From Flavonifractor sp. An92 (GTDB lineage: Bacteria > Bacillota > Clostridia > Oscillospirales > Oscillospiraceae), in assembly GCF_002159175.1 (NCBI RefSeq), contig NZ_NFGZ01000017.1:1-59801 (forward strand): 59,801 nucleotides of DNA. The letters are read 5' to 3'. This document shows, one piece after another, positions 6,075 to 59,801 of the stretch. The position numbers and the translations under genes are program-made. Within the stretch, counting starts at the first letter, position 1. Every line of letters begins with the position of its first letter. The notes beneath the pieces are model-generated. The model did not search any database and was not told the origin of the DNA. It was given only the letters and a program-made list of their open reading frames with translations.

Positions 6075-6310
6075 AAATCAGCCAAAGGTATTGACCGGGA
6101 GGAGTACGCATGGTCCCGGCCTGAGAGAGAAGCCGTCTGGTGCGAGGCTTCCGAAGGGCCGTGCGGAAGGCGCCCGCGAGCCGTGGGGAGGCAATGCCCC
6201 ACCGGTCCCCGCCGTTACCGGGTTTGAGAGCGGAGCGCCCCGGCGCTTCGAATTCAGGTGGAAACACGGACTTTGTTCGCCCTGAGCCATTGCGGCTCAG
6301 GGCGTTTTTT
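6075..6310 (+). promoter_or_regulatory. T-box riboswitch controlling glyS
   Basis: The roughly 235-base leader has the T-box order of elements: AGGAGTACG (stem I AGTA-type loop), AGAGAG and GGTGCGA elements, a CCGTTA...TGAGAG segment, the T-box itself at 6253-6269 (AGGTGGAAACACGG), and an intrinsic terminator at 6278-6310 (arm CGCCCTGAGCC followed by six T). The bulge reads TGGA, which would pair with the UCCA acceptor end of tRNA-Gly, agreeing with glyS downstream. Known mechanism: uncharged tRNA stabilises the antiterminator and lets glyS be transcribed. The T-box differs from the usual TGGTACCGCGG in its 3' half. The specifier codon was not located with certainty. Confidence 0.85.
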
Positions 6311-7796: not shown

Positions 7797-8151
7797 TTGT
7801 GCTCGCCGCACAGGCCGCCTGCTCGGCGGGAGCACCGCTTTCTTTGCAAAGAAAGCGGTAGGAAAGAAAGCCCAGAGGGGGGATACCCCCCTCTGGACTC
7901 CCCCAAAACGCTCCCCGGCTTTCATTCTTCTGCGGCGGTATTTCCAAAGTGCGGCGTGGCCAATTCCGGGCTTTCCGCCTATCCGGAAAGCGTTGTACCC
8001 TGGCATAAGACAGGTGGCCGAAGGCCGCCCACTTGGAGGGGAGTGGAGAGGGGAACGAGAAGTTCCCCTCTCCGCCTTTTCTTTCCCCCATTTCTTTTCG
8101 CGAAAAGAAATGGGGCGCTGTCCGCGCAGGACGCCCGCCCGGCGAGGGCAT
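7797..8151 (+). repeat. MITE-like hairpin-rich repeat, copy 1 (forward)
   Basis: A 355-bp element begins seven bases after the glyS stop. Its ends are imperfect inverted repeats of the form TTGYCCTCGCCGGRCGGGC (left end degenerate here). Inside are five palindromes in fixed order: ACCGCTTTCTTTG plus its complement, CCAGAGGGGGG/CCCCCCTCTGG, GCTTTCCG/CGGAAAGC, GAGAGGGGAAC/GTTCCCCTCTC, and TTTCTTTTCGCGAAAAGAAA. The same order recurs at 40820-41178, 45041-45400 and 59616-59801. Open frames across it differ in each copy and are not believed to be genes. Confidence 0.9.
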
Positions 8152-39068: not shown

Positions 39069-40808
39069 ATGAATTGGAAACACGATAACCGGGGTTATCT
39101 GCGCATTTTTGCCTCCTACTATAAGCCCCACTGGAAGCTCTTCGCCCTGGATATGGTGTGCGCGCTGCTCATCTGCATTGTGGACCTCCTCTTCCCGGTG
39201 CTGTCCCGCTACTCCATGCAGACCCTGCTGCCCGGGCAGGCCTTTACGGCCTTCTTCGCCCTCATGGCGGCCCTGGGCGCGGCCTATGTGCTGAAAAGCG
39301 TCTTTTACTACATCGTCACCTACTGGGGTCACCTGCTGGGCGTGCGGATGGAGGCCGATATCCGCCGGGACCTTTTCTCCCACATGCAGGACCTGTCCTT
39401 CTCCTTTTATGACAAGAACCGCACCGGCCAGCTCATGAGCCGGGTCACCGGCGACCTCTTCGAGATCACGGAGCTGGCCCACCACGGCCCGGAGGACCTC
39501 TTCATCTCGGCGGTGACCCTGCTGGGCGCCTTCTGCATCCTCCTCACCATCCAGTGGCAGCTGGCCCTGGTGGTGTTCGCCGTGATCCCCCTCTTCATTC
39601 TCTACACCGCCCTCACCCGCAAGAAGATGATGAAGGCCTCCACTGAGGTCAAGGCCAAGCTGGCCGGCATCAACGGCGAGGTGGAGTCCTCCCTCTCCGG
39701 CATGCGCACCGCCAAGGCCTTCGCCAACGAGGCGGCGGAGAGTGCCAAATTTGACGCCGCCAACGACCAGTTCCGGGGCGCCAAGCGGGGCTACTACCGC
39801 ATCATGGCCTTCTACCAGGCGGGGATGGAGTTCTTTATGGGCATCCTCTCGGTGCTGGTCATCGCCTTCGGCGGCTTCCTCATCATGCAGGGGAAGATGG
39901 ACTTCATCGACCTCACCACCTTCGCCCTCTATATCACCACTTTCATTACCCCCATCCGCAAGCTCTCCGCCTTCGTGGAGCAGTTCATGCAGGGTATGGC
40001 GGGCTTCAAACGCTTCGTGGAGCTCATGCGCCTGGAGCCGGAGATCCAGGACGCCCCCGACGCCCGGCCCCTCACCCATGTGGAGGGAGATATTTCCCTG
40101 GAAAACGTGACCTTCCGGTATGAGCGCTCCGCCGAGCCGGTGCTGGAGCACCTGTCCCTCCACATCCGCCCCGGCGAGACGGTGGCGGTGGTGGGCCCCT
40201 CCGGCGGCGGCAAGTCCACCCTCTGCCAGCTCATCCCCCGGTTCTACGACGTCACCGAGGGCCGGGTGCTGGTAGACGGTCAGGACGTGCGGGAGCTCAA
40301 GCAGCACGATCTGCGCGCCCACATCGGCATGGTCCAGCAGGACGTGTTCCTCTTCGCCGGCACCATCTACGATAACATCCGCTATGGCCGGCCCGACGCC
40401 ACCGAGGCCGAGATCATTGACGCCGCCCGCAAGGCGGAGATTTATGACGACATCGCCGCCATGCCCCAGGGCTTCCAGACCCAGGTGGGCGAGCGGGGCG
40501 TCATGCTCTCCGGCGGACAGAAGCAGCGTATCTCCATCGCCCGCATCTTTTTGAAAAATCCCCCCATCCTCATTCTGGATGAGGCCACTTCCGCCCTGGA
40601 CAGCGTCACCGAGGCCCACATCCAGTCGGCCCTGGACGCCCTGGCCGTGGGCCGCACCACTCTCATCATCGCCCACCGGCTCTCCACCATCCGCTCCGCC
40701 AGCCGCATCGTGGTCATCGACGGCAGCGGCATCGCCGAGGAGGGCACCCATGAGGAGCTGCTGGCCAAGAACGGGGCGTATGCCAAGCTGTCCCGGGCCC
40801 AGGCGTAG
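39069..40808 (+). CDS. ABC exporter, fused permease and ATPase (MsbA/BmrA type)
   Basis: The 579-residue half-transporter carries an N-terminal membrane domain of about six spans and a C-terminal ATPase with Walker A GPSGGGKST, signature LSGGQKQR, Walker B LILDEATSALD and the H-loop IIAHRLS. Half-transporters of this kind dimerise to export lipids, drugs or peptides. It is alone, so either it forms a homodimer or its partner is elsewhere. The substrate cannot be told. Repeat copy 2 begins 12 bases after its stop. Confidence 0.93.
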   Translation: MNWKHDNRGYLRIFASYYKPHWKLFALDMVCALLICIVDLLFPVLSRYSMQTLLPGQAFTAFFALMAALGAAYVLKSVFYYIVTYWGHLLGVRMEADIRRDLFSHMQDLSFSFYDKNRTGQLMSRVTGDLFEITELAHHGPEDLFISAVTLLGAFCILLTIQWQLALVVFAVIPLFILYTALTRKKMMKASTEVKAKLAGINGEVESSLSGMRTAKAFANEAAESAKFDAANDQFRGAKRGYYRIMAFYQAGMEFFMGILSVLVIAFGGFLIMQGKMDFIDLTTFALYITTFITPIRKLSAFVEQFMQGMAGFKRFVELMRLEPEIQDAPDARPLTHVEGDISLENVTFRYERSAEPVLEHLSLHIRPGETVAVVGPSGGGKSTLCQLIPRFYDVTEGRVLVDGQDVRELKQHDLRAHIGMVQQDVFLFAGTIYDNIRYGRPDATEAEIIDAARKAEIYDDIAAMPQGFQTQVGERGVMLSGGQKQRISIARIFLKNPPILILDEATSALDSVTEAHIQSALDALAVGRTTLIIAHRLSTIRSASRIVVIDGSGIAEEGTHEELLAKNGAYAKLSRAQA

Positions 40809-40819
40809 CCTGGGGGTGT

Positions 40820-41178
40820 TTGTCCTCGCCGGACGGGCGTCCTGCGCGGACAGCGCCCGATTTCTTTTCGCGGAAAAGAAACCGGGGAAAGAAAAGGCGG
40901 AGAGGGGAACTTCTCGTTCCCCTCTCCACTCCCCTCCAAAAGGGCGGCCTTTTCGGGGTCCGCCCATATTGCCAGGGTACAACGCTTTCCGGATAGGCGG
41001 AAAGCCTGGAATTGGCCGCGCCATGCTAAGGAAATACCACCGCAGCAGAATGAAAGCCGGGATGCGCTTTGGGGGAGCCCAGAGGGGGGTATCCCCCCTC
41101 TGGGCTTTCTTTCCCACCGCTTTCTTTGCAAAGAAAGCGGTGCTCCCGCCGAGCAGGCGGCCCGCCCGGCGAGGGCAA
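40820..41178 (-). repeat. MITE-like hairpin-rich repeat, copy 2 (reverse)
   Basis: A 359-bp copy in opposite orientation to copies 1 and 3. Both terminal inverted repeats are intact: TTGTCCTCGCCGGACGGGC at 40820 and, reversed, TTGCCCTCGCCGGGCGGGC ending at 41178. All five internal palindromes are present in the same order. It fills most of the gap between the ABC exporter gene and mnmG. Confidence 0.92.
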
Positions 41179-41207
41179 CGCCACCGGCCTTTGCCGGAGC
41201 CAGAAGA

Positions 41208-45020: not shown

Positions 45021-45040
45021 ATCCGGACAATCCGGAGGAT

Positions 45041-45400
45041 TTGCCCTCGCCGGGCGGGCCGCCTACTCGGCGGGAGTACCGCTTTCTTTGCAAAGAAAGC
45101 GGTGGGAAAGAAAGCCCAGAGGGGGGATACCCCCCTCTGGACTCCCCCAAAGCGCATCCCGGCCTCCATCCGGCTGCGGAGGGATTTCCTTACTCTGGCG
45201 TGGCCAATTCCAGGCTTTCCGCCTATCCGGAAAGCGTTGTACCCTGCCAATATGGGGCGGCTCCCTGAAAAGGCCGCCCTTTTGGAGGGGAGTGGAGAGG
45301 GGAACGAGAAGTTCCCCTCTCTGCCTTTTCTTTCCCCGGTTTCTTTTCGCGAAAAGAAATCGGGCGCTGTCCGCGTAGGACGCCCGCGCGGCGAGCGCAC
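45041..45400 (+). repeat. MITE-like hairpin-rich repeat, copy 3 (forward)
   Basis: A 360-bp copy between the convergent mnmA and cinA genes. Modules: 26-bp perfect palindrome at 45078-45103; CCAGAGGGGGG hairpin at 45116-45140; GCTTTCCG hairpin at 45214-45235; GAGAGGGGAAC hairpin at 45295-45321; 20-bp palindrome TTTCTTTTCGCGAAAAGAAA at 45340-45359. Left terminus TTGCCCTCGCCGGGCGGGC; right terminus degenerate. Confidence 0.92.
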
Positions 45401-45424
45401 ATCCCTCCGGTCTGACCGGGGATG

Positions 45425-59615: not shown

Positions 59616-59801
59616 TTGTCCTCGCCGGACGGGCGTCCTGCGCGGACAACGCCCGATTTCTTTTCTCGAAAAGAAACCGGTGAAAGAAAAGGCGGAGAGG
59701 GGAACTTCTCGTTCCCCTCTCCACTCCCCTCCAAAAGGGCGGCCTTTTATGGGGCCGCCCATATTGCCAGGGTACAACGCTTTCCGGATAGGCGGAAAGC
59801 C
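59616..59801 (-). repeat. MITE-like hairpin-rich repeat, copy 4 (reverse, cut by window edge)
   Basis: The terminus TTGTCCTCGCCGGACGGGC at 59616 is identical to that of copy 2. It is followed by the TTTCTTTTCTCGAAAAGAAA hairpin (one base different), the GAGAGGGGAAC hairpin and the GCTTTCCG hairpin before the window ends. Similarity to copy 2 extends a few bases outward (TGGGGGTGxTTG). Confidence 0.9.

Follow-up and report, generated by a model that had tools for sequence, protein, structure and literature searches.

A RAYT or an insertion-sequence (IS) transposase accounts for most of the palindromic repeats of bacteria, and mosaic repeats such as BOX and BIME place several palindromic modules in a set order in intergenic DNA. 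MITEs, for example RUP, NEMIS and QMITE, are described in PMC10969869 and PMC3733652 as short, non-coding, intergenic, high-copy elements with inverted ends, the transcripts of which fold stably. In PMC3733652, REP and REPIN repeats, with their GTAG and CGTC palindromes, appear as multicopy extragenic hairpins that vary from species to species and are probably recognised in folded, single-stranded form. The repeat family described here resembles each of these systems in the respects named, and neither kind of transposase is evident for it. Four copies lie in the window, the whole 59,801-nucleotide stretch of contig NZ_NFGZ01000017.1 of Flavonifractor sp. An92. No description of the family was found in the literature searched, a collection outside which most subscription journals and preprints lie.

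Architecture of the element

The element is comprised of two inverted arms of ~110 nt around a species-specific, rapidly changing core, with each arm carrying, from the outside inward, the hairpins z, a, b, c and d. Re-examination of the sequence located all four copies with inverted ends listed in the initial annotation, in both orientations. Copy 1 (7798–8150, + strand) and copy 2, the element under study (40821–41177, − strand), are delimited by TG...CA, as is copy 3 (45042–45399, + strand), which lies between convergent genes, 3' of a terminator-like hairpin, with z hairpins at 45022–45036 and 45407–45419; and copy 4 (59617–59801, − strand) shows these limits as far as it goes, being truncated at the contig end. 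The inverted ends had been given as 19-bp terminal repeats. Such ends exist, with a consensus looser than that, the constant part being only TG..CTCGCCG..C, in which the dotted dinucleotides are variable yet complementary to each other (copy 1 starts with TGTGCTCGCCGCAC).

Copy 2 sits between what we take, from their translated starts, to be an ABC-transporter-like gene and an mnmG/gidA-like gene. Its first z hairpin (40798–40814, CCCAGGC-GTA-GCCTGGG) overlaps the stop codon of the upstream gene and flanks the + arm, which consists of end hairpin a (40821–40834, GTCC-TCGCC-GGAC), the interlocked motif b (40839–40856, GTCC-T-GCGC-GGAC-A-GCGC), hairpin c (40856–40886, CCCGATTTCTTTT...AAAAGAAACCGGG) and hairpin d (40900–40926, GAGAGGGGAACTTCTCGTTCCCCTCTC). 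The species-specific core occupies 40940–41066 between the arms. In the other arm, on the − strand, hairpin d (41079–41103, CCAGAGGGGGG...CCCCCCTCTGG) is followed by hairpin c (41116–41141), a perfect 26-bp palindrome, motif b (41142–41159, CGCC-T-GCTC-GGCG-G-GAGC) and end hairpin a (41164–41177, GCCC-TCGCC-GGGC), with the second flanking z at 41184–41197 (CCGGC-CTTT-GCCGG). Hairpin c corresponds to the 26-bp and 20-bp palindromes of the initial annotation, the former exact at 7834–7859, 41116–41141 and 45078–45103, and the latter (TTTCTTTTCGCGAAAAGAAA) exact only at 8091–8110 and 45340–45359, copies 2 and 4 having variants of it. The paired ~110-nt arms, the z, a and b hairpins and the interlocked second pairing described below go beyond that annotation.

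Hairpin a reads G-YS-C TCGCC G-SR-C in most arms, with a constant loop and a stem found in four common states. Motifs a and b follow one interlocked design of ~18 nt, S1(4) - T - S2 - S1' - purine - S2', and the loop of b pairs with the bases just downstream of its stem, forming a second pairing, b2. A loop 3 of one nucleotide is unusually short for an H-type pseudoknot, and the two stems of b may therefore not form together. Two arms carry an extra b motif in tandem (L062:219-330 and L144:1115-1226), which suggests that b is a module. The z hairpins lie outside the TG...CA limits, are highly variable and are absent on one side in some copies. A z stem of at least 5 was present within 32 nt of 58 of the 79 arm ends in the Flavonifractor sp. 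An92 genome, as compared with 9/79 and 11/79 in control stretches further out and a mean of 5.7 in shuffles; in the related genome G007 the figure was 22 of 41 ends, against 2 and 8 further out and 3.5 in shuffles.

Copy number and distribution

The genome assembly (3.49 Mb in 60 contigs, 99% complete) yielded 70 candidates in a DNA search, and all 40 of those scored matched at 86–100%, so the family is not a product of chance. An arm covariance model, R1, built from 81 arms, gave 104 arm matches (E ≤ 1e-4; 150 of 4118 candidates scored), which pair into 48 elements. The span is 348–365 bp in 43 of the 48, including in the count two pairs that were first joined to a neighbouring palindrome match (span 37) and were entered at their true span of 356 bp. 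Eight arms remained unpaired: two come from these re-joined elements, one is a weak overlapping match and five lie at most 190 bp from a contig end, as does every strong unpaired arm. The elements break assemblies, contigs C9, C18, C42 and C59 each ending inside a copy. Every strong arm belongs to a short pair or lies at the end of a contig, so that this assembly, 60 contigs with gaps at copies, shows no long copy that carries genes. The suggestion that a non-coding family with inverted ends had multiplied is borne out, with ~50 copies in this genome and more in its relatives; the repeat extends well past the four loci in the window.

The family is restricted in lineage. A DNA search of 60 genomes matched all ten of the genus and, weakly, two others of the family, and with stricter filters the arm model matched 52 of 300 Oscillospiraceae genomes, which represent 29 of the 106 genera sampled, Flavonifractor included, so that the conserved ends are found in other genomes also. 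The genomes G268 and G088 are rich in arms (56 and 36 matches, respectively), and in other genera the same paired arms bound elements of ~520–690 bp. Across the class 5 of 391 genomes matched, three of them in the family (one being the genome studied here), the other two belonging to a different family of the order. In genome contigs, 24 stretches contained an exact 22-bp hairpin pattern, 21 in Ca. F. merdigallinarum and one each in Pseudoflavonifractor gallinarum, Ca. Gemmiger avistercoris and an uncultured Oscillospiraceae bacterium. Phage and plasmid collections gave no match and two exact hairpin patterns were absent from viral contigs; carriage by phages or plasmids was rejected on these grounds.

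Two variants of the internal organisation were seen. In G004 (L123:1117-1629, L124) nearly the whole ~510-bp element is a single large, imperfect palindrome that contains an inner inverted repeat of 30 bp, and in G305 (L193, L202, L188) the core seems to hold a nested palindromic repeat of the CCTTCCCC...GGGGAAGG type in 3 of the 4 copies inspected.

Covariation in the arm hairpins

Pairing was examined in alignment A2, for which 82 arms were sampled at random within genomes out of a total of 148; one stray match was excluded, so that 81 arms from eight genomes remain. Stem a1 is 99.4% paired, although its letters change: one position is U-A in 40 arms and C-G in 38, and the next is G-C in 43 and C-G in 38. 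Stem b1 is 99.1% paired. The two variable inner positions of b2 are paired in 81/81 arms, as U-A (34), C-G (26) or G-C (21) at one and C-G (72) or U-A (9) at the other, whereas the outer b2 pair (columns 46–58) is paired in 40 arms and unpaired in 41. Two arm types are misaligned in helix c, which lowers its value to 82.7% paired. Stems a and b contain almost no G-U pairs, with 3 cells in the 81 arms.

Overall, 90.7% of cells are paired as compared with 74.8% in column shuffles and 40–56% with slid partners, and both the double-change cells and the covariation score exceeded all 500 shuffles, these counts including related copies that are not independent events. The number of pairs changed on both sides (16, compared with 13.6 in shuffles and reached by 29 of 500) was in no clear excess, nor was that of further pair types (31 against 31.4, reached by 355 of 500). 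Outside the genus, b2, which is absent from the search model, is paired in 48 of 52 cells; b1 is paired in 76 of 78 cells, a figure biased by the inclusion of b1 in that model. The b anchor was located in 26 of the 34 arms in this set (8 had none), and in 2 of the 26 it sat on motif a.

The stem changes are therefore compensatory, and the uncompensated mutation that would have spoken against a structured element did not occur. The statement that loops and linkers differ more than stems holds in part: in the small hairpins a and b the stems themselves differ between arms, with compensating changes, and a has a constant loop. Hairpins that keep their pairing despite changes of letter suggest recognition by shape.

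Location and evolution of copies

Gene context was obtained for 35 of 41 copies with a home-made codon model and seeded genes. These 35 copies are extragenic, with 18 between convergent, 15 between tandem and 2 between divergent genes; the gene gaps of >40 nt in the window number 5, 10 and 5, respectively. Gene 3' ends that face an element lie within 40 nt of it in 24 of 51 cases and gene 5' ends in 0 of 19. In many flanks a terminator-like hairpin with a T-run stands just before z. Target-site duplications were in no excess over mismatched flank pairs in 35 of the 41 copies, and direct repeats at the TG/CA border were seen in 0–1 of 35 for lengths of 2–10; such duplications can become unrecognisable as an insertion ages.

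The states of the two ends were compared in 29 of 41 parsed copies, the rest being too short, cut or off the arm pattern. Cores are 89% alike on average. The state of hairpin a at one end shows no dependence on that at the opposite end (p = 0.76), nor does it track the most similar core (p = 0.44 and 0.37). Between the two ends the b1 states show an association (p = 0.0005), as do those of b1 and b2 within an arm. Upstream positions correlating with the a state number 4 of 40 in Flavonifractor sp. An92 and 2 of 40 in G007, and are different ones.

Junctions between genes were compared across species, and having been fetched for holding elements they over-represent presence. G007 also has an element at the copy 2 junction, on two contigs, and its continuity is assumed because both break inside the element. 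There z is AAGGG-gca-ACCCTT in G007 and CCCAGGC-gta-GCCTGGG in Flavonifractor sp. An92, a is GCGC/GCGC as against GTCC/GGAC, and hairpin d of one arm differs by a compensated C-G to G-C change, with ~105 nt of the other arm identical and the flanking genes ~84–90% identical. G008 and G009 have no copy at this junction, with 33–36 bp instead of ~490, and G007 has none at that of the copy at 45042, with 87 bp instead of ~440. At the L009 junction G009 has a complete copy and G006 has one arm, that of L002 holds half a copy in G009, and at those of L014 and L007 the G007 copies are in the opposite orientation. Because junctions are shared between species, some of them in opposite orientation, copies are retained from one species to another, and they either turn round where they stand or arise more than once at the same sites; the two opposite-orientation junctions may fit either insertion or shared ancestry. 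The relatives compared, which are too diverged for this, gave no base-exact empty site, and a search of four diverged genomes with joined flanks, made for 6 of the 16 copies prepared, found no locus with both flanks adjacent.

Alternative origins

The initial annotation had offered a non-autonomous transposable element or a structured RNA domain. A classical MITE, derived by deletion from a DDE-type insertion sequence whose ends are long and inverted, and moved by the transposase of that sequence, would have the inverted ends, uniform length, high copy number and intergenic location without coding capacity that are seen here, and G004 has a 1.7-kb copy (L122:1512-3224, G004:C106) with two ORFs in its core, both on the reverse strand, of 173 aa (with a lipoprotein-like start) and 113 aa. 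However, these ORFs have no Pfam match above cut-off (sub-threshold matches only) and are not transposase-like, the end sequences of the family vary, and the element is not AT-rich, as MITEs typically are (61.8–62.6% GC in the three full copies, 63.9% in the window). With target duplication absent in 35 copies, neither a base-precise empty site nor a transposase that has matching ends found, and no long autonomous copy visible in the Flavonifractor sp. An92 genome, the evidence does not support a textbook MITE; derivation from an IS is unlikely. Mobilisation as a REP/REPIN-type repeat by a Y1 (RAYT) transposase is very improbable. It would suit palindromic, extragenic repeats with species-specific subfamilies, hairpin recognition and a place near gene 3' ends, and Y1 genes do occur in 5 of the 10 genus genomes and in 6 of 12 arm-bearing genomes of other genera. 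Yet the Flavonifractor sp. An92 genome has ~50 copies and no Y1_Tnp candidate, G268, with its 56 arm matches, has no such candidate either, and the GTAG or CGTC tag is not part of the consensus arm end, which starts TG..CTCGCCG. Six Y1 loci were examined in the genus and none has an intact arm end; on this and on the lack of Y1_Tnp in Flavonifractor sp. An92, RAYT was rejected as the mover.

The other reading, of a structured RNA that spread by duplication and would serve, for instance, in a 3' UTR, in stability or in termination, appears improbable. The predicted RNA fold of one copy is very stable (−218.6 kcal/mol, z = −10.4, equalled by 0/100 shuffles), copies are mostly beside gene 3' ends, and one variable pair of hairpin c has, in + orientation, G-T and not A-C, on few informative pairs; in this strand test 33 "other" cells in one hairpin trace to one misplaced outer pair of the search pattern. 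Against this, many copies lie beyond a terminator-like hairpin, both orientations occur, and the near absence of G-U pairs from the a and b stems is unlike usual RNA covariation. Rfam 15, at its gathering score, matched no element in the window and 17 loci, and a known RNA family was rejected accordingly. Group IIC introns, which insert beside terminators, were also considered, and no Rfam group II match was obtained in the loci searched. Elsewhere in the window, a T-box leader is found at 6082–6287 (+ strand; Rfam RF00230, 97.4 bits). Pairing could also be kept by mutation alone, with template switching and gene conversion repairing the palindromes of neutral repeats, a reading that we hold to be quite improbable. 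A template-switch mutation mechanism has been published (PMC8794818), and would account for double changes that lack G-U intermediates as well as for how extremely z varies. The asymmetric loop of a, however, is forward in 79 and inverted in 0 cases among the loci of Flavonifractor sp. An92, and all or almost all of the 81 arms share the TG and the closing pairs and loop of a, for which selection or recent common descent is needed. Template switching may thus help to keep the pairing, without explaining a constant loop that is never inverted.

Proposed mode of recognition

The explanation that we prefer, and to which we give an even chance, is an old, non-autonomous and non-coding REP/MITE-like repeat of the Oscillospiraceae that is recognised as folded hairpins by a trans-acting factor and resides mostly at gene 3' ends. 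Recognition of the arms in folded form would follow from the constant loop and closing pairs of a, the freedom of the inner stem letters and the recurrence of the module in a and b. The factor would probably read the closing pairs and TCGCC loop of a and the geometry of b, leaving the inner stem letters free, and would have brought the element, by copying or moving it, into intergenic DNA close to the ends of genes, with no target duplication. Copies would then persist, the interior being homogenised by gene conversion and the outer hairpins drifting under a pairing constraint. The near absence of G-U pairs and the many copies beyond terminators weakly favour a fold of single-stranded DNA over one of RNA.

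A more specific proposal, which is tentative and rather doubtful, is that the 18-nt a/b module is a dedicated, genus-spanning recognition structure of pseudoknot-like or switching hairpins, read by a new protein that would mobilise or organise the repeats by shape. If so, Oscillospiraceae would own a hairpin-guided mobile system unrelated to RAYT. Hairpins with constant loops and free stems, in which two interlocked stems covary, form an unusual natural record of shape recognition, and the arms would allow the recognising protein to be fished for and could be used to examine whether selection or template switching maintains the pairing.

Comparison with known repeat systems

The element works like a REP or MITE family and departs from both in the features that define membership. 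In common with MITEs it is short and non-coding with terminal inverted repeats, here the paired inverted arms. It differs from MITEs, as far as these are described in the sources cited above, in that no target duplication and no matching transposase were found, and in its ~110-nt arms with ordered hairpins, its host-like GC-richness and its compensated stem variation. Compared with the 20–40 bp REP/REPIN repeats, as described in PMC3733652, it is a composite of ~360–690 bp with no GTAG/CGTC consensus tag, in a genome that has no Y1 gene.

From BOX and BIME the element is distinguished by its two mirror-image arms and by an interlocked module that covaries in both of its stems.
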